DNA of 64,000 bases, taken from positions 87,945 to 151,944 of the forward strand of contig NZ_CAMYKO010000007.1 in NCBI RefSeq assembly GCF_947259025.1. The letters are read 5' to 3'. The position numbers and the translations under genes are program-made. Of this stretch, positions 13,240 to 27,137 are shown in pieces (position 1 is the first letter of the stretch; each line of letters starts with the position of its first letter). Source of the DNA: an uncultured Methylophaga sp. GTDB taxonomy: Bacteria; Pseudomonadota; Gammaproteobacteria; Nitrosococcales; Methylophagaceae. The notes below the pieces were generated by a model that was not told the origin of the DNA, searched no databases, and saw only the letters and a list, made by a program, of their open reading frames with translations.

Positions 13240-13255
13240 TGGCACGGTCATTGCG
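13240..13255 (+). promoter_or_regulatory. Sigma-54 promoter of nirB-nirD-nasA
   Basis: TGGCACG-GTCA-TTGC is an essentially perfect -24/-12 element, with GG and GC at the required 12-base interval. Transcription should begin near 13265, giving a short leader of ~24 bases before the nirB ATG, without a terminator or ANTAR-type hairpins. Confidence 0.85.
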
Positions 13256-18898: not shown

Positions 18899-18914
18899 TG
18901 GCACCATGGTTGCA
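18899..18914 (+). promoter_or_regulatory. Sigma-54 promoter of the nitrate-island porin
   Basis: TGGCACC-ATGG-TTGCA matches the -24/-12 consensus with GG and GC correctly spaced. A TTGGTGCA half-site lies about 70 bases upstream (near 18829), next to an AAATAAGTAT stretch that also occurs upstream of nirB. Transcription should start near 18924, just before the ANTAR-type leader. Confidence 0.82.
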
Positions 18915-18933: not shown

Positions 18934-18993
18934 CTGCAACGATGCAGCTAATTTTAAGTTTTTACAATAATTATTAATCAAGGTAACGAAGCC
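18934..18993 (+). promoter_or_regulatory. ANTAR-target two-hairpin leader of the porin gene
   Basis: First hairpin: CTGC-AACGAT-GCAG (18934-18947). Second: GGT-AACGAA-GCC (18982-18993). Both have six-base loops with A at position 1 and G at position 4, the signature of RNAs bound by ANTAR antiterminators. The second hairpin uses bases of the 5' arm of the terminator that follows, so forming or stabilising it should prevent termination. The NasT-like ANTAR protein encoded 2.6 kb downstream is the obvious ligand. Confidence 0.78.
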
Positions 18994-19023
18994 ATAACGG
19001 GGTAAGCCCGTTGTGGCTTTTTT
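18989..19023 (+). terminator. Leader terminator upstream of the porin (attenuator)
   Basis: Thirteen-pair stem (AAGCCATAACGGG with CCCGTTGTGGCTT, one G-T pair) and a T run, placed after the sigma-54 promoter and before the porin ribosome site. By default it would stop transcription; nitrate signalling through the ANTAR protein would relieve it. Confidence 0.85.
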
Positions 19024-19038
19024 ATGCGAGGAAAAAAT

Positions 19039-20298
19039 ATGCCAAGAATGAAGAAACTCACTGCTCTGACCGTTATCGCAACAGGCCTGAGTAGTTTTGC
19101 CATTGCCCCGACTGCTGCGGCCGACGATGCCTTTATGGAAGCCTTGACGGGCGGCAAGGTCAGTTTTTCTGCCCGTGCACGCTATGAAAATGTCGATCAG
19201 GATGGCATAGATAAAAAAGCGGATGCTTATACGCTGCGCACCACACTCGGTTATAAAACCGGTGCCTTCCATGGTTTCAGTGGTTTTGTCGAGTTTGAAG
19301 ATGTGTCACATCTGGGCTCAGATAAATTCAACGCCGCCGGCACCAATGATGAGCCCAGTTATCCGATTGTGGCGGATCCGGAAGGGACTGAAGTCAACCA
19401 GGCTTATCTAGCCTATGACGCTTTCGATACCACGTTTAAATTCGGCCGTCAGATCATCACTTATCGTGACGCACCGTTCCACCGCTTTATTGGTACCGTC
19501 GGCTGGCGTCAGAACTGGCAGACTTTTGATGCCTTCAGCGTTGTAAACACATCGCTGCCCGATACCTCGCTGAGTTATGCCTATATTGATAAAGTACAAA
19601 CCATTTTCGGTGATGACGGTAATCTGGCTGCGATGATGGTGGATGATGGTGAGATCCATATGGACAGCCATCTGTTCAACTTGAAGTATGCCGGCCTGCC
19701 TATCGGCAACCTGGAGGGCTATGCCTATTTGCTGGACTATGAAGATTCAGTCGATGACAGTGCGTATTCCCGCGCCACCTATGGTGCACGCATCTCTGGT
19801 GCTCAGCCTCTAAACGAGTCATTCAAACTGGTTTACACCGCTGAATATGCGACCCAGGATGACTATGCGGATGGTGAAATGGATAAGCAGGATTACACCC
19901 TGCTCGAAGTGGGCGGTAAGTACAAAGGCTGGTTATTAAAACTGTCTCATGAAGTGCAGGAAGGTGACGGCAACTTCAGTTTCCGAACCCCGCTGGGTAC
20001 CAATCATGCTTATCAGGGCTGGGCAGATAAGTTCCTGAATACGCCGACAGATGGCCTCGAAGACACCTACGTCACCCTGGTCGGTAATGTATTAGGGGCC
20101 AAGCTGGTGGCCCAGTACCATGATTTTGAAACCGACGAAAACAGTCTGGATGCCGGTGAAGAATTCGACATCATGCTGGCCAAGACTTTCAAAAAGCATT
20201 ACACCGTCGGGGTCAAATATGCTGACTACAACGCCGATGATGAATTTGGTCTGACCGATACCGAGAAATTCTGGATGTGGGGACAGGTTAAGTTTTAA
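19039..20298 (+). CDS. Outer-membrane porin of the nitrate regulon (alginate-export-like barrel)
   Basis: 419 residues from the ATG that has AGGAAAAA in front; an earlier in-frame ATG lies on the terminator tail and is unlikely. Signal peptide ends near TAAA-DDA. The mature protein is a beta-barrel-like sequence (ARARYENVDQDG, QAYLAYD, FKFGRQIITYRDAPFHRF) ending in Phe (MWGQVKF), typical of outer-membrane channels of the alginate-export/OprD-like group. The sigma-54 promoter, ANTAR leader and neighbours suggest that it lets nitrate or nitrite cross the outer membrane. That substrate is inference. Confidence 0.75.
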   Translation: MPRMKKLTALTVIATGLSSFAIAPTAAADDAFMEALTGGKVSFSARARYENVDQDGIDKKADAYTLRTTLGYKTGAFHGFSGFVEFEDVSHLGSDKFNAAGTNDEPSYPIVADPEGTEVNQAYLAYDAFDTTFKFGRQIITYRDAPFHRFIGTVGWRQNWQTFDAFSVVNTSLPDTSLSYAYIDKVQTIFGDDGNLAAMMVDDGEIHMDSHLFNLKYAGLPIGNLEGYAYLLDYEDSVDDSAYSRATYGARISGAQPLNESFKLVYTAEYATQDDYADGEMDKQDYTLLEVGGKYKGWLLKLSHEVQEGDGNFSFRTPLGTNHAYQGWADKFLNTPTDGLEDTYVTLVGNVLGAKLVAQYHDFETDENSLDAGEEFDIMLAKTFKKHYTVGVKYADYNADDEFGLTDTEKFWMWGQVKF

Positions 20299-20320: not shown

Positions 20321-20343
20321 AAAGCCGGGTTATGCCCGGCTTT
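20321..20343 (+). terminator. Intrinsic terminator after the porin gene
   Basis: AAAGCCGGG-TTATG-CCCGGCTTT: strong stem closing with T residues (TTTG), about 20 bases after the stop codon. Confidence 0.8.
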
Positions 20344-20478: not shown

Positions 20479-20494
20479 TGGCACAGCTTATGCA
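20479..20494 (+). promoter_or_regulatory. Sigma-54 promoter of the NIT/ANTAR operon
   Basis: TGGCAC-AGCTTA-TGCA keeps the GG and GC at sigma-54 spacing. Start expected near 20504, which gives a 30-base leader before the small membrane-peptide gene. A TGCACC half-site lies about 100 bases upstream. This promoter lies inside a longer reading frame beginning near 20453, which argues for the shorter downstream start. Confidence 0.75.
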
Positions 20495-20533
20495 AAATCA
20501 TTCATTGTAATCAACCGCGCAGGGAGAAAAGCG

Positions 20534-20647
20534 ATGGGCTATTTCATTGATTTGATGTATCTGCTGAAAGAGTTGGTGAAATTAGTATTCATGGTCATGA
20601 TTTCACCGTTGGGACTCGTGGCCGGTGTTCTGGTGGCCTGGGGCTAA
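20534..20647 (+). CDS. 37-residue membrane peptide ahead of the nitrate sensor
   Basis: Starts at an ATG with a strong AGGGAG site 7 bases upstream. Sequence begins MGYFIDLMYLLKELVKLVFM and ends GLVAGVLVAWG: one or two short hydrophobic segments joined by KELVK. It is the first gene after the sigma-54 promoter and lies 39 bases before the NIT gene. I do not recognise a family. A helper or anchor for the membrane-bound sensor is possible. Very small genes are hard to prove from sequence alone. Confidence 0.55.
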   Translation: MGYFIDLMYLLKELVKLVFMVMISPLGLVAGVLVAWG

Positions 20648-20686
20648 ACAGCCAGCCAGGGCACGTTTGTTCACTGGAGAGCAAAA

Positions 20687-21550
20687 ATGTATCCGATGTT
20701 TATCGGTGGCCTCACCGTTGTGTGCCTATTATTTATTGTCAGTCGTCTTGCCATACTAAGGCGTGAAGAACAAAGCCGGGTGGAGCAGGGTATCCTGCTG
20801 ACGGTACACCTCAAACGCATTATTGATAGCTGTCAGAAACACCGCGGCACCAGCAATGCGGTCAGCCAGGGTAATGACAAGCTGAAACCCAATCTGGTGA
20901 GTCTGCAGCGCGATATCGATCAACTGATTGCCAGTGGTGACAGTCATCAATTGACGCGTTTCCCGCAGTGGGCATCCTTTGCTGAACATTGGCCCAGACT
21001 GAAAAAACATGCGCTGGCCGGTGATCTCAAATCTCACAACCTGGTACGCCAGCATAGCCTGATGATCGATGGTCAATTGTCTCTGCTGGATGATGTGATG
21101 CGGGATCATGACCTGCACCGGATGATGCTGGATCGCTGTACCCGTGTTTCAGAAATCTGCCTTGATACACTGCGCGTGGCTGAAACGGTTGGCCAGACGC
21201 GGGCTATCGGTTCCGGTATCTGTGCCCGTGGGGTTTGCGAAGGGGCGGACCGTATCATTCTCGATTTCCTGCGCATTTCGGTGCAAAGCACAACGAACGA
21301 ACTGGTCAAGCAGATCCATACCATAGATAACCATGACCTGAGGCAGTCATTACAGACGGCATCCAACGCAATTTCAGACAGTATCAGCAAACTTATCAGC
21401 ATGGTTGAAAACCATGTACTAAAGGAAGGCAAGCTGCAACTCGATACAAACGATTATTTCAATACCTCGACCCGGGCCATTGATGAGGTGCTGAAAGTAT
21501 TCGGCATCATTATTCATTATGCCTCTCAACAACACACCCGAATGATATGA
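20687..21550 (+). CDS. Membrane-anchored NIT-domain nitrate/nitrite sensor
   Basis: 287 residues. One N-terminal membrane segment (residues 3-22) is followed by RRE-rich residues, which by the positive-inside rule leaves the rest in the cytoplasm. The remainder looks like an all-helical NIT domain: CQKHRGTSNAVSQGN near residue 46, and the second-half signature AETVGQTRAIGSGICARG near 165. In Klebsiella NasR the NIT domain is fused to the ANTAR domain; here it is a separate protein whose stop overlaps the start of the ANTAR gene by 4 bases. Expected to sense nitrate/nitrite and control the ANTAR partner. Confidence 0.72.
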   Translation: MYPMFIGGLTVVCLLFIVSRLAILRREEQSRVEQGILLTVHLKRIIDSCQKHRGTSNAVSQGNDKLKPNLVSLQRDIDQLIASGDSHQLTRFPQWASFAEHWPRLKKHALAGDLKSHNLVRQHSLMIDGQLSLLDDVMRDHDLHRMMLDRCTRVSEICLDTLRVAETVGQTRAIGSGICARGVCEGADRIILDFLRISVQSTTNELVKQIHTIDNHDLRQSLQTASNAISDSISKLISMVENHVLKEGKLQLDTNDYFNTSTRAIDEVLKVFGIIIHYASQQHTRMI

Positions 21551-22167
21551 GCAATGCCGCTATGAATTCTGAATCTATCATCAACACTATTGTGATCAGT
21601 GAACAGCCGGAGGTGACCGGGCACATTGCCTCGGTGCTGGCTGATTCTGACTACAAAATCATTTTTGAAGGCGCGACTTTGCAGCAGTTATTGTCACTGA
21701 AATGGACAGTCGAACCGGAATTGATCATCGCTGTGTTCGATGCCAGTGACAGTGAACTGCTCAACAAATTCAAAATCATCAACGAACAGTTTCCTCTCCC
21801 CATTGTGATTTTTACTCATGATGATCGTGATGATGCCATTGAGCAGGCGATACAGGCGGGCGTCAGTGCTTATATTGTCGATGGCTTTCGTGAGGACCGG
21901 GTTTTGCCCATTCTGCGCACAGCGATAGCACGCTTTCGTCAATACCAGTCAATGCAAGAGCATATAAAAGAACTCAAGACCTCGTTGGCCGATCGCAAGA
22001 TCATTGATCGTGCCAAGGGGTTGATCATGGAGCAGCGTGAGTGCAGTGAGGATGAAGCCTATCGTCTGCTGCGTACTTCAGCGATGAATCAGAATATGCG
22101 TCTGGCCCAACTGGCCCAGAATATCCTGGCGACAGCCAACCTGCTGGAACCCAAAAAATCCGTTTAA
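21547..22167 (+). CDS. NasT-like ANTAR antiterminator
   Basis: 206 residues. The N-terminal half is receiver-like (PIVIFTHDDRDDAIEQAIQA, then GVSAYIVDGFREDRVLPILR) as in NasT, but the usual phospho-Asp site is not clear (AVFDASDSELL). The C-terminal ANTAR domain (about residues 140-196) has LADRKIIDRAKGLIMEQR and EDEAYRLLRTSAMNQNMRL. ANTAR proteins bind paired hexaloop hairpins and block terminators. Matching hairpins precede the porin, nrtA and, more tentatively, narK genes nearby. No NasS-type partner without a signal peptide is seen; the cotranslated NIT protein is the likely sensor. Confidence 0.88.
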   Translation: MSNAAMNSESIINTIVISEQPEVTGHIASVLADSDYKIIFEGATLQQLLSLKWTVEPELIIAVFDASDSELLNKFKIINEQFPLPIVIFTHDDRDDAIEQAIQAGVSAYIVDGFREDRVLPILRTAIARFRQYQSMQEHIKELKTSLADRKIIDRAKGLIMEQRECSEDEAYRLLRTSAMNQNMRLAQLAQNILATANLLEPKKSV

Positions 22168-22295: not shown

Positions 22296-22311
22296 TGGCA
22301 TATTATCTGCA
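22296..22311 (+). promoter_or_regulatory. Sigma-54 promoter of nrtABC
   Basis: TGGCATA-TTAT-CTGCA keeps the -24 GG and -12 GC. Transcription would start near 22322, immediately before the first ANTAR-type hairpin. Confidence 0.78.
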
Positions 22312-22330: not shown

Positions 22331-22379
22331 ACCCAACGGCGGGTAACTTAAAAAAACAGAACGATGGATAAAGACGTCC
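22331..22379 (+). promoter_or_regulatory. ANTAR-target two-hairpin leader of nrtABC
   Basis: First hairpin ACCC-AACGGC-GGGT (22331-22344), second GGAT-AAAGAC-GTCC (22366-22379). Both loops have six bases with A1 and G4. The 3' side of the second hairpin is the beginning of the terminator stem, so the two structures exclude each other. This is the classic arrangement for ANTAR-mediated antitermination. Confidence 0.82.
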
Positions 22380-22414
22380 TTGTTGAGCTTAGCTCGACCA
22401 GGGCGTCTTTTTTT
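22371..22414 (+). terminator. Leader terminator upstream of nrtA (attenuator)
   Basis: Long stem of about 17 pairs (AAGACGTCCT...GAGC with GCTC...AGGGCGTCTT), a three-base loop and a run of eight T. It sits between the promoter and the nrtA ribosome site, so it must be overcome for nrtABC expression. Confidence 0.88.
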
Positions 22415-22438: not shown

Positions 22439-23842
22439 ATGCTTAAAAATCCTTTATCGATCACACGCCGCAAGCTGGTGAAGACCCTGGCGGCAGCCAG
22501 CCTGATATTCAGCACCGGCATGATGTCAGCAACGTCGGTTTATGCTGCACCGGGCGACATTGAAAAACCGGACCTCAAGTTCGGCTTTATCAAACTGACC
22601 GATATGGCGCCGCTGGCGATTGCCTACGAAAAATTCTTTTTCGAGGACGAAGGTCTCTACGTCACCCTGGAAGCCCAGGCCAACTGGAAAGTCCTGCTTG
22701 ATGGCGTGATTGACGGCACCCTGGACGGTGCTCACATGCTGGCCGGACAACCTCTGGGTGCAACCATTGGTTTCGGTACCAAGGCCGACATCATCACCGC
22801 GTTCAGTATGGATCTTAACGGTAATGGCATCACCGTTTCCAATGATATCTGGGAACAAATGAAACCCAATATTCCCAAGCGGGAAGACGGCAAACCGGTG
22901 CACCCGATCAGTGCCGAAGCGCTGAAACCGGTGGTTGACTCCTATAAAGCCGAAGGCAAACCTTTCAATATGGGCATGGTGTTCCCGGTTTCCACCCATA
23001 ATTATGAACTGCGTTACTGGCTGGCCGCCGGTGGTATTCACCCGGGCTACTACGCACCGCATAAAGGCGATGTCAGCGGTCAGATTGATGCTGATGCCTT
23101 GCTGTCGGTTACACCGCCACCCCAAATGCCATCCACCATGGAAGCCGGCACCATTTACGGTTACTGCGTCGGTGAGCCCTGGAACCAGCAGGCGGTATTC
23201 AAAGGGATTGGCGTGCCGGTCATCACTGACTATGAAATCTGGAAAAACAATCCGGAAAAAGTCTTCGGTGTCAGCAAAGCCTGGGCTGAGGAAAATCCCA
23301 ACACTCACGTTGCTGTCGTCAAAGCGTTGATCCGTGCCGCTCACTGGCTGGATGAAAACAACAATGCCAACCGTCCGGAAGCGGTGGAAATCCTGTCGGA
23401 AAGCCGTTATGTCGGTGCTGACTATGAAGTCATCGCCAACAGCATGACTGGCACATTTGAATATGAAAAAGGCGACAAGCGTGCCATTCCCGATTTCAAT
23501 GTGTTCTTCCGCTATAACGCCACATATCCGTACTACAGCGATGCGGTCTGGTACCTGACGCAAATGCGTCGTTGGGGGCAGATTGCCGAGCCTAAAGCGG
23601 ACAGCTGGTATATGGATATCGCCAAGAAAGTCTATCGTCCCGATATCTACGCGGTGGCGGCCAGGGAACTGATTGAAGAAGGCAAACTGCCGGCCTCAGC
23701 GTTCCCCGACTTTGCAACCGAAACCGGTTTCAAACCGGCGCAAACCGAGTTTATTGACGAGATTACTTTCGACGGCACCCAGCCTAATGCCTATCTGGAA
23801 CAATTCCCGATCGGTCTGAAAGGTGAAGAGGTCGTTGAGTAA
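22439..23842 (+). CDS. nrtA: Nitrate ABC transporter, substrate-binding protein
   Basis: 467 residues. The start used has GGGAG just upstream; an earlier in-frame ATG lies in the terminator and would add 25 non-coding-like residues. A twin-arginine-type signal ([18 protein letters not shown]) precedes the mature protein at about AAPGDIEKP. The body is NrtA/SsuA-like ([49 protein letters not shown]). It binds nitrate, possibly nitrite or cyanate, in the periplasm for the permease and ATPase encoded next. The signal sequence argues against it being the cytoplasmic sensor NasS. Confidence 0.93.
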
Positions 23843-25778: not shown

Positions 25779-25892
25779 AAGTGTTGATTTGATTTAAAGA
25801 AAATGTCGAGTTGGTCGCTAAACTCGCTATCTGTAAACCTAATTTGATGATAAAGTATTGTGTACAATCAATCGACTGAGGAACCTGGCTGC

Positions 25893-27137
25893 GTGAGTAC
25901 CGCTTTTCAGGACCAACCCCATCACGCGGCCAGCTTCGACGGACTGATTCTGACCTCCGCGTTTCAACCTATTTTCAGCATCGCCCATCGGCGCCCTGTT
26001 GGCTATGAGGGCTTATTGCGTGCCTATGATGTGGAAGGCCGACAATTGATGCCGGGTGAGGTTTTCCAGCGCCCCAGTCATAGTCAGCAACAACTGGAAC
26101 TCGACAGAATCTGTCGCAAGCTGCATGCCGAGAACTTTGCCGCTCAGGACGACAAGGGTAGTTGGCTGTTTCTCAATCTCAATTCCCAATGTCTGGTTAC
26201 CGAGCGGCCTGAGGCCGGTTTTATGCGGCAAATTATCGCCCGCACTGGGATTCCGGCAAGACGCATTGTTATCGAAATTCTGGAAAGTGAAATTGATGAC
26301 CGCACCTATTTACGGCAGTTGATAGAGCACTTCCGGGGCATGGGCTGCCTGATAGCGATTGATGATTTTGGTGCCGGCCATTCCAATTTCGACCGTATCT
26401 GGGAACTGAAACCGGATATCGTCAAGATTGACCGTAACCTGGTCAAACAGGCCAGTGAATCTCTCAAGGTGGAGCGTATCCTGACTGGGATTGTGTCATT
26501 GATCCATGAAACCGGCAGTTTGGTTGTGGTCGAGGGCGTTGAAACGGAAAAAGAAGCACTGGTGGCCATATCCAGCAATGCCGATATGGTGCAGGGCTTT
26601 TATTTCGGTAAACCGCATTCACAAATTAAAGATTATCAGTTTGCCACCAAAATGGAGGCATTGCTGAGCCAGAAAAACAGCGCCAGCTGTCAGTACAGCC
26701 GGCGCATGCAGCAACAGTTTGAACTGTTACGCCAGCGCTATCAGCAAGAGGTTGAGAGCTTTCGCCACAGTCAGCGTCTCGAGCAATGCGGGCAAGCACT
26801 GTTTGAGGATGATCGCGTAGTGCGTTGCTTTCTGCTCGATCAGCAGGGGCATCAGATTGGTCGCAGTCTCTACTCTCCCAAGTTTACTACCCGGCTGGAT
26901 ATTCGCTTTTCTCCATTGCTTGCCGGCGAGAATGCCAACTGGTCACATCGTCATTATCATCACCGGGCCTTGCAGCACCCGGATACCATCCAAATCAGTC
27001 GTCCCTATCTGTCTGTGGCGGGCTCACATATGTGTGTGACGGTCTCCCAGGCAATTGAGGTGGATAACAAGATTCTGGTGTTCTGCGCCGACCTCGACTG
27101 GAATGACGAAGATCTAGCCGCTATCGACTTGCCCTGA
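25893..27137 (+). CDS. EAL-domain c-di-GMP phosphodiesterase with YkuI_C-like sensor
   Basis: The EAL domain holds its main catalytic residues: YEGLLRA (EGL in place of EAL), LFLNLN, IEILESE, IAIDDFGAGHSNFDRI, DIVKID and VVEGVET. It should hydrolyse c-di-GMP. After about residue 270 comes a charged helix and then a PAS/Cache-like fold (FLLDQQGHQIGRSLYSP, then ISRPYLSVAGSHMCVTVSQA) resembling the C-terminal domain of YkuI. Cytoplasmic. This GTG has GAGGAA 10 bases upstream; a GTG at 25860 would add 11 residues. Its role inside the nitrate island is unclear. Confidence 0.85.
   Translation: MSTAFQDQPHHAASFDGLILTSAFQPIFSIAHRRPVGYEGLLRAYDVEGRQLMPGEVFQRPSHSQQQLELDRICRKLHAENFAAQDDKGSWLFLNLNSQCLVTERPEAGFMRQIIARTGIPARRIVIEILESEIDDRTYLRQLIEHFRGMGCLIAIDDFGAGHSNFDRIWELKPDIVKIDRNLVKQASESLKVERILTGIVSLIHETGSLVVVEGVETEKEALVAISSNADMVQGFYFGKPHSQIKDYQFATKMEALLSQKNSASCQYSRRMQQQFELLRQRYQQEVESFRHSQRLEQCGQALFEDDRVVRCFLLDQQGHQIGRSLYSPKFTTRLDIRFSPLLAGENANWSHRHYHHRALQHPDTIQISRPYLSVAGSHMCVTVSQAIEVDNKILVFCADLDWNDEDLAAIDLP

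Follow-up and report, generated by a model that had tools for sequence, protein, structure and literature searches.

How would nitrate be sensed by an antitermination system in which the NIT domain and the ANTAR RNA-binding domain lie in two neighbouring proteins, one of them with a membrane helix? This question is raised by a nitrate-assimilation locus in a 64 kb stretch of DNA (64,000 nucleotides, hereafter the window) from an uncultured Methylophaga sp., a methanol-eating bacterium whose own genome (G000) comprises 2.70 Mb and is 99.88% complete. Comparisons were made across 57 genomes of the Methylophagaceae, which is the family meant in all counts below. As read from the open reading frame listing and the sequence, the genes in question follow a σ54-like promoter in the order 37-residue membrane peptide, NIT protein and ANTAR protein. 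An earlier reading of this DNA, here called the first-pass annotation, had placed the three genes identically, with the peptide first after the promoter, and this arrangement was reproduced. Promoter sites were scored out of 12 consensus letters.

20479..20494, + strand: σ54-like promoter TGGCACAGCTTATGCA of the sensor operon (10/12 consensus letters)
20534..20647, + strand: 37-residue membrane peptide (coding evidence, homologues)
20687..21550, + strand: membrane-anchored NIT-domain protein of 287 residues, proposed nitrate sensor (Q50-x-x-R53, G169-x-x-R172)
21547..22167, + strand: receiver-like-ANTAR RNA-binding protein of 206 residues, proposed NasT-like antiterminator (ATGA overlap with the NIT gene)

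We propose, with a probability of about 0.72, that the NIT protein controls the ANTAR protein at the leaders of a porin gene and of nrtA, whatever the sign of that control, and we read the locus as a split, membrane-tethered NasR-like switch for nitrate uptake. Gene order, similarity of fold and motif, leader RNA structure and single copies in the genome were observed or computed, and from these we infer nitrate binding, contact between the NIT and ANTAR proteins and the sign of control. Searches of the own genome returned one match to NIT, one to ANTAR and one to NMT1_2, the last being NrtA itself, so that the NIT protein is the sole evident nitrate sensor for the sole ANTAR protein of G000. 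A NasS sensor in the same genome was considered and rejected, as no second NMT1_2 protein was found in it.

The sensor operon and its products

The 287-residue protein had been read as a NIT protein in the first-pass annotation, and its match to Pfam NIT (PF08376) was evaluated. The match spanned profile positions 3–227 of 239 with an E-value of 2.4e-4 and 22.0 bits, the curated cut-off being 24.9; the similarity is supported, whereas the window protein itself did not reach the curated score. In an alignment of 16 NIT protein rows, window copy included (A1), 12 rows matched the same profile individually at E ≤ 0.01, the best at 2.6e-10. The closest named relatives were four Methylophaga records, 79–85% identical to the window in the NIT protein, and the family is called Methylophagaceae on this basis. 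The structure predicted from A1 (mean predicted local distance difference test score, pLDDT, of 91.7) takes the form of an all-helical NIT bundle, and its top two matches in the PDB were both NasR chains of 4akk with TM scores of 0.56–0.57 and E-values of 2–3e-3 (best TMq 0.56, E 2.2e-3), followed by unrelated helical bundles. No NIT structure was recovered among PDB sequences by phmmer with the NIT protein or by the A1 profile.

The nitrate site is described as G-x-x-R in a part of PMC8199190, according to which NasR retains both arginines while one glycine is replaced by glutamine. Two motifs of the G/Q-x-x-R form, Q50-K-H-R53 and G169-Q-T-R172, are present in the window protein. Q50, H52, R53, R172 and G175 were invariant over the 16 rows, both arginines of the motifs being among them, and position 169 was occupied by glycine or alanine. 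By eye, two NIT-ANTAR fusions from outside the family (L152 and L154) read QRER and GQER, compared to QKHR and GQTR in the window protein. Motif and context are what suggest that the NIT protein binds nitrate or nitrite through these two arginines.

The window NIT protein begins with a hydrophobic helix that is preceded by no lysine or arginine and followed by three in the next 15 residues. In 15 of the 16 A1 rows no such residue precedes the most hydrophobic 18-residue stretch and 3–7 occur in the 15 residues after it; this stretch starts at residue 1 or 2 in some rows and in L017 it includes a lysine at residue 4. Because the positive-inside rule puts the side rich in lysine and arginine in the cytoplasm, the NIT bundle is placed there by this rule, behind one membrane helix, in line with the anchored and cytoplasmic sensor of the first-pass annotation. 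A periplasmic NIT domain reporting outside nitrate through the helix would resemble the sensor domains of nitrate histidine kinases and the NIT-type domains of CvnA kinases, which are located outside the cytoplasm according to PMC8199190 and PMC13343842. This alternative is however highly improbable, as 15 of the 16 rows carry lysine and arginine after the helix, the remaining homologue (L023) has no N-terminal hydrophobic helix at all, and only few residues would remain inside to contact the ANTAR protein.

The stop codon of the NIT gene (TGA, 21548–21550) and the start codon of the ANTAR gene (ATG, 21547–21549) overlap as ATGA, the genes being in different frames. Against Pfam the 206-residue protein scored 75 bits for ANTAR and 21 bits for the receiver domain, the latter under its cut-off of 30.2, and its predicted structure (pLDDT 83) was best matched by EutV, Rv1626 and AmiR. 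A separate NasT-like protein with a start overlapping the sensor stop, as previously annotated, is borne out by this result, the likeness to NasT being one of domains and fold and not of comparison with a NasT sequence. Alignment to Rv1626 placed a valine at what we take to be the phospho-aspartate position of the receiver-like domain, and this position was not conserved in nine rows, unlike in a phosphorylated response regulator. The alignment suggests a receiver-like domain without phospho-aspartate, as in the pseudo-receiver of the AmiR type. A second, distant ANTAR match of 51–55 bits was observed in four genomes of the genus (G053:C1:215181, G036:C10:363441, G052:C27:22018 and G037:C1:2415551).

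The peptide gene is under purifying selection with mean synonymous (pS) and nonsynonymous (pN) values of 0.64 and 0.12, respectively (28 pairs of 8 of 24 loci), and the window peptide had no match in Pfam or NCBIfam. Strong relatives of at least 69 bits were found once each in 24 of 57 family genomes, 24 of 24 in the ANTAR locus and 21 with NIT between. Weaker relatives of 30–55 bits occurred elsewhere in 42 of the 57 genomes, including a copy in the own genome at C5:573412; such relatives are located at L234:4392-4529 and in L235–L248, and in 4 of 6 loci with open reading frames listed the weaker relative adjoins a gene that is presumably tsaB-like. On account of these paralogues a peptide specific to the nitrate switch was dropped, and it can instead be regarded as a small membrane peptide that belongs to a larger family and was recruited here. 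That the peptide is a needed part is not supported as stated in the first-pass annotation, as it stays with ANTAR as the mapped gene before it in three genomes without NIT (G006, G034 and G045). Our guess is that the peptide holds the ANTAR protein at the membrane.

Leader RNAs and promoters of the nitrate cluster

A scan was performed for a hexaloop hairpin P1 with A at loop position 1 and G at position 4 (A1, G4), followed by a similar hairpin P2 with a 3' arm overlapping the 5' arm of an intrinsic terminator, a dual-hairpin motif that follows the description in a part of PMC3369931. In both strands of the 64 kb exactly two sites were returned, at 18934–19020 before the porin and at 22331–22410 before nrtA, each with the A1/G4 hexaloops and the P2 overlapping an intrinsic terminator that mark a dual-hairpin ANTAR antiterminator RNA. 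No site was found in six first-order Markov copies of the window.

18899..18914, + strand: σ54-like promoter TGGCACCATGGTTGCA of the porin transcript (11/12 consensus letters)
18934..18947, + strand: porin leader P1, loop AACGAT (A1, G4), from the scan and covariance model R1 (built with this site)
18982..18993, + strand: porin leader P2, loop AACGAA, 3' arm common with the terminator (scan, alignment)
18988..19020, + strand: porin leader intrinsic terminator, overlapping P2 (6/14 terminator pairs changed on both sides)
19024..20298, + strand: outer-membrane porin, proposed target (weak Opr porin family match, under cut-off)
20321..20343, + strand: terminator-like hairpin 3' of the porin (by eye; absent from the automated scan's listing)
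22296..22311, + strand: σ54-like promoter TGGCATATTATCTGCA of the nrtABC transcript (9/12 consensus letters)
22331..22344, + strand: nrtA leader P1, loop AACGGC, from the scan and model R2 (built with this site); also R1, 33 bits
22366..22379, + strand: nrtA leader P2, loop AAAGAC, 3' arm common with the terminator (scan, alignment)
22370..22410, + strand: nrtA leader intrinsic terminator (8/17 terminator pairs changed on both sides)
22439..23842, + strand: nrtA, binding protein of a nitrate ABC importer, followed by nrtB and nrtC

The compensatory changes in the terminator stems, 6 of 14 pairs in the porin set and 8 of 17 in the nrtA set, are expected of any retained terminator. Extended to 26 family loci, the scan returned sites in 11 of them, whereas single Markov copies of these loci (348 kb) yielded no site. 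Chance hairpins were rejected as an explanation based on the lack of matches in the Markov copies. Further leaders were found by the covariance models R1 and R2, and 7 of the 10 listed matches, weak ones included, have A1/G4 loops in both hairpins. In the own genome, where 150 of 187 candidates were scored for R2 and 150 of 277 for R1, the porin and nrtA leaders were the best matches among the candidates scored; a further R1 match was located at C1:225062 (34 bits, E 5e-4). As the genome-wide R1 search scored part of the candidates and omitted the nrtA leader, in spite of its 33 bits by R1 in a direct search, further targets may be missed. Rfam gave no match to the leaders at gathering score. 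On the strength of these leader sequences the porin and nrtABC are proposed as targets of the ANTAR protein, and both genes named as targets in the first-pass annotation, porin and nrtA, do carry ANTAR-type leaders. The start of nrtA is likely at 22439, the listed ATG at 22364 falling inside the leader.

All three transcripts, namely porin, sensor operon and nrtABC, have σ54-like sites. A site scoring at least 10 was found before 16 of 24 homologous peptide genes, compared to 2 of 2400 shuffled 110-bp windows, and a site scoring at least 9 before 21 of 24 (the shuffled control was run at ≥10 only). The terminator-like hairpin seen by eye at about 20321–20343 sits between the porin and the sensor genes.

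The nitrate-assimilation cluster around the sensor genes comprises nirB (13289), nasA (16050), the porin, nrtABC, an EAL protein and an MFS transporter. The names nirB, nasA, nrtB, nrtC and MFS are assumed by us from the sequences with no family search behind them, and NrtA is likewise presumed to be specific for nitrate. By eye, the nirB operon has a near-consensus σ54-like site, TGGCACGGTCATTGCG, at 13240–13255 and a short leader without an ANTAR target. As the nirB operon has no ANTAR-type leader, ANTAR control seems to be directed at uptake rather than at reduction, and the genes for the two may be controlled differently. The EAL protein (25860–27137) has a weak C-terminal PDC-like match under cut-off, and a close relative of it is present in 11 of 20 mapped family regions.

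The mechanism that we propose would operate as follows. Under nitrogen limitation, when NtrC acts with σ54, three units would be transcribed, namely the porin, the peptide-NIT-ANTAR operon and nrtABC. The porin and nrtABC transcripts would stop at the leader terminator unless the ANTAR protein binds both hexaloop hairpins, ANTAR-bound P2 excluding the terminator. A single helix would anchor the NIT protein in the inner membrane and leave its sensing bundle on the cytoplasmic side, where it would bind nitrate or nitrite via the two arginines; in the absence of nitrate the NIT protein would most likely keep the ANTAR protein inactive at the membrane, and nitrate would free the latter. Nitrate-uptake proteins would then be produced only under nitrogen shortage with nitrate available.

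Distribution in the family and the sign of control

NIT-only relatives, counted at E < 1e-48 with frames of up to 363 residues, were found at 23 loci in 22 of 57 family genomes, and the order peptide-NIT-ANTAR was observed in 21 of the 23, window included. The named strain Methylophaga thiooxydans DMS010 (L034) shows the arrangement porin-peptide-NIT-ANTAR-nrtA just as the window does. The exceptions are G023 and the second NIT of G048. In G023 (L188:6969-7931) the NIT-only protein comes directly after a porin, and neither ANTAR (E 1e-8) nor NMT1_2 (E 1e-20) was found in the genome. The second NIT-only protein of G048 (L168:7955-8812) is without a helix, is flanked by porin and nrtA and adjoins no ANTAR gene, the single ANTAR of this genome standing at its other NIT locus.

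An ANTAR protein was found in 32 of the 57 genomes, or 31 after leaving out G033, where it is a 30-residue piece at a contig end. Out of these 31 genomes, 21 have NIT and 10 are without a NIT relative (G034, G045, G051, G004, G006, G015, G017, G018, G028 and G029). Six of the 10 have a target leader (G006, G018, G028, G004, G029 and G034), which does not support the view of NIT as a needed part. In G018, G028, G004 and G029 the gene mapped ahead of ANTAR is that of the porin, and these four and G006 have full-length nrtA, nrtB and nrtC according to BLAST. A second NMT1_2 protein was found in none of nine of the NIT-less genomes. If ANTAR depended on NIT, uptake would be off in NIT-less genomes with leader terminators, and ANTAR and the leaders should decay. 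Since ANTAR and target leaders survive in 6 of the 10, NIT as a restrainer of ANTAR is favoured, and on this survival argument we hold restraint to be fairly likely. NasS likewise restrains NasT in what PMC3795266 describes in part, and a part of PMC7496416 describes autoinhibition within NasR; restraint by NIT would act in the same sense as both.

The opposite sign, where nitrate-bound NIT activates ANTAR, for instance by promoting dimerisation, and the antiterminator is inactive without NIT, is unlikely. The gene order strictly kept at 21 of 23 loci and the ATGA overlap suit any obligate partnership, and RNA binding by EutV is better upon dimerisation according to a part of PMC3369931, but 10 of 31 genomes retain ANTAR without NIT and the leaders with terminators in six of these would shut uptake off. 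A lack of coupling altogether, with ANTAR acting without NIT, alone or via the small peptide, and NIT signalling elsewhere, is quite improbable. Such NIT-less genomes with ANTAR do exist, as does G023 with NIT and no ANTAR; all 24 peptide genes lie in the ANTAR locus and 21 of them are accompanied by NIT, and the nearest NIT-only proteins outside the Methylophagaceae adjoin chemoreceptor genes. However, the immediate neighbours of NIT are peptide and ANTAR in 21 loci, the genes overlap in the window, and the own genome is without another evident nitrate sensor for ANTAR.

A number of observations count against a nitrate-responsive NIT restrainer. The PF08376 score of the window protein lies under the curated cut-off, none of 437 structural matches of the NIT model passes an E-value of 0.001, and nitrate binding is absent in some NIT domains as described in a part of PMC13343842. 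No leader was found in NIT-less G045, G015, G017 and G051, of which G017 has nrtA beside ANTAR and is also the one NIT-less genome with a second NMT1_2 protein. G045 and G034 say little on the sign, as NIT went with most of the cluster in the former and together with nrtABC in the latter; on account of these losses, G006, G018, G028, G004 and G029 are the strongest cases. Of the 21 NIT-bearing genomes 13 were examined, and a canonical leader (model E ≤ 1e-8) was identified in seven of these (G000, G002, G010, G016, G021, G049 and G055) and not in G035, G037, G038, G041, G048 and G052, in four of which P1-like hairpins are readable. The leader is about equally common with and without NIT, and attenuation may have been altered or given up in some lineages. 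In the ANTAR tree the presence of NIT needs five changes, four of them forced by well-supported branches, with long-branch warnings; the number of losses is unsure and gains are possible. Another sensor could also serve the NIT-less genomes. With respect to G045, its 16-kb region (L165) retains three nrtC pieces, the peptide and ANTAR, while a search of the region for nasA, porin, nrtA and NIT gave none of the four.

NIT proteins outside the family and known antitermination systems

A survey of 369 gammaproteobacterial genomes with the A1 profile gave matches at E ≤ 1e-20 in 13, two of which belong to the genus of the window. Six of the remaining 11, which represent four genera, have NIT-only proteins in frames of 273–357 residues with an N-terminal hydrophobic stretch by eye. 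All six come directly after, and run in the same direction as, a gene with an MCP signalling domain (L059, L060, L062, L065, L066 and L068), and none has an ANTAR neighbour by the ANTAR profile. This pair of genes is possibly a split nitrate chemoreceptor. Judged by these gene neighbourhoods, membrane NIT subunits paired with separate output proteins also occur outside the Methylophagaceae.

The NIT profile identified 123 places in 77 of the 369 genomes. Inspection covered 30 loci of this survey, seven regions retrieved manually (L178–L183 and L186, L178 running off its contig) and the loci of the A1-profile survey, with automatic flanks of about 1.5 kb; more than 70 of the 123 places fall outside it. 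ANTAR domains were present in eight inspected loci, seven of which have NIT and ANTAR as a fusion within a single frame (L139, L144, L147, L148, L150, L152 and L154). In the eighth, L149:1070-2673 of a single-contig genome, NIT and ANTAR are in different, overlapping frames. As no receiver match was found, we take L149 for a gene of the NasR type whose frame was changed or whose sequence contains an error; it is probably a frame change in a fused gene, and a second kind of split is possible. Within the inspected part of the survey, the pairing of NIT with a receiver-ANTAR protein was seen only in the Methylophagaceae. The adjacency of NIT and ANTAR genes pointed to by the first-pass annotation is found in 21 of 23 loci of the family, while outside it only L149 appears as a possible split among inspected loci.

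A wider reading is that membrane NIT-only proteins are an exchangeable nitrate subunit that plugs into separate outputs, ANTAR in the Methylophagaceae and chemoreceptor signalling proteins in other gammaproteobacteria. In this reading the antiterminator would be released from the inner membrane by nitrate, and the 37-residue peptide would be a third partner that helps hold ANTAR there. We regard this as tentative and rather doubtful.

With NasR of Klebsiella oxytoca (PDB 4akk) the window system shares the NIT bundle fold, the form of the arginine motif, the ANTAR output, the dual-hairpin leader target and nitrate gene neighbours. NasR is however one soluble NIT-ANTAR chain, whereas the window has two overlapping genes in different frames that encode a NIT protein with a membrane helix and an ANTAR protein with a receiver-like domain. 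The NasS-NasT systems of Paracoccus, Azotobacter and Pseudomonas also pair a sensor with a receiver-ANTAR antiterminator, possibly with the same sequestration logic, and the ANTAR score of 75 bits, the weak receiver match and the fold are those of a NasT-like protein; the sensor is in contrast an NrtA-like binding protein in these systems and a NIT protein here. The AmiC-AmiR pair of Pseudomonas aeruginosa (PDB 1qo0) also has a pseudo-receiver ANTAR protein that is held by a ligand-binding protein, and AmiR was among the top structural matches. The ligand there is an amide and the sensor is not NIT. AmiC is of another fold than NIT. EutV of Enterococcus faecalis is a receiver-ANTAR protein with a dual hexaloop/terminator RNA target and is switched by phosphorylation according to a part of PMC3369931, whereas the window ANTAR has valine at the expected phospho-aspartate.

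In titles, abstract openings and passages of the literature on ANTAR and NIT, NasR, NasS/NasT and Methylophaga nitrate assimilation, few of them from subscription papers, no pair of a membrane NIT and a separate ANTAR protein was found. Nitrate-controlled antitermination is described in the passages in two forms, fused in NasR and with a binding-protein sensor in NasS-NasT, and the window system fits the third architecture that the first-pass annotation had suggested. If true, this third form, a membrane NIT sensor with a separate NasT-like protein, would show that the same RNA output is wired to different sensors, and it would raise the question why an antiterminator is tied to the membrane beside the transporters under its control. 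With NIT-less genomes that retain ANTAR and RNA targets, the sign of control lends itself to a direct test.

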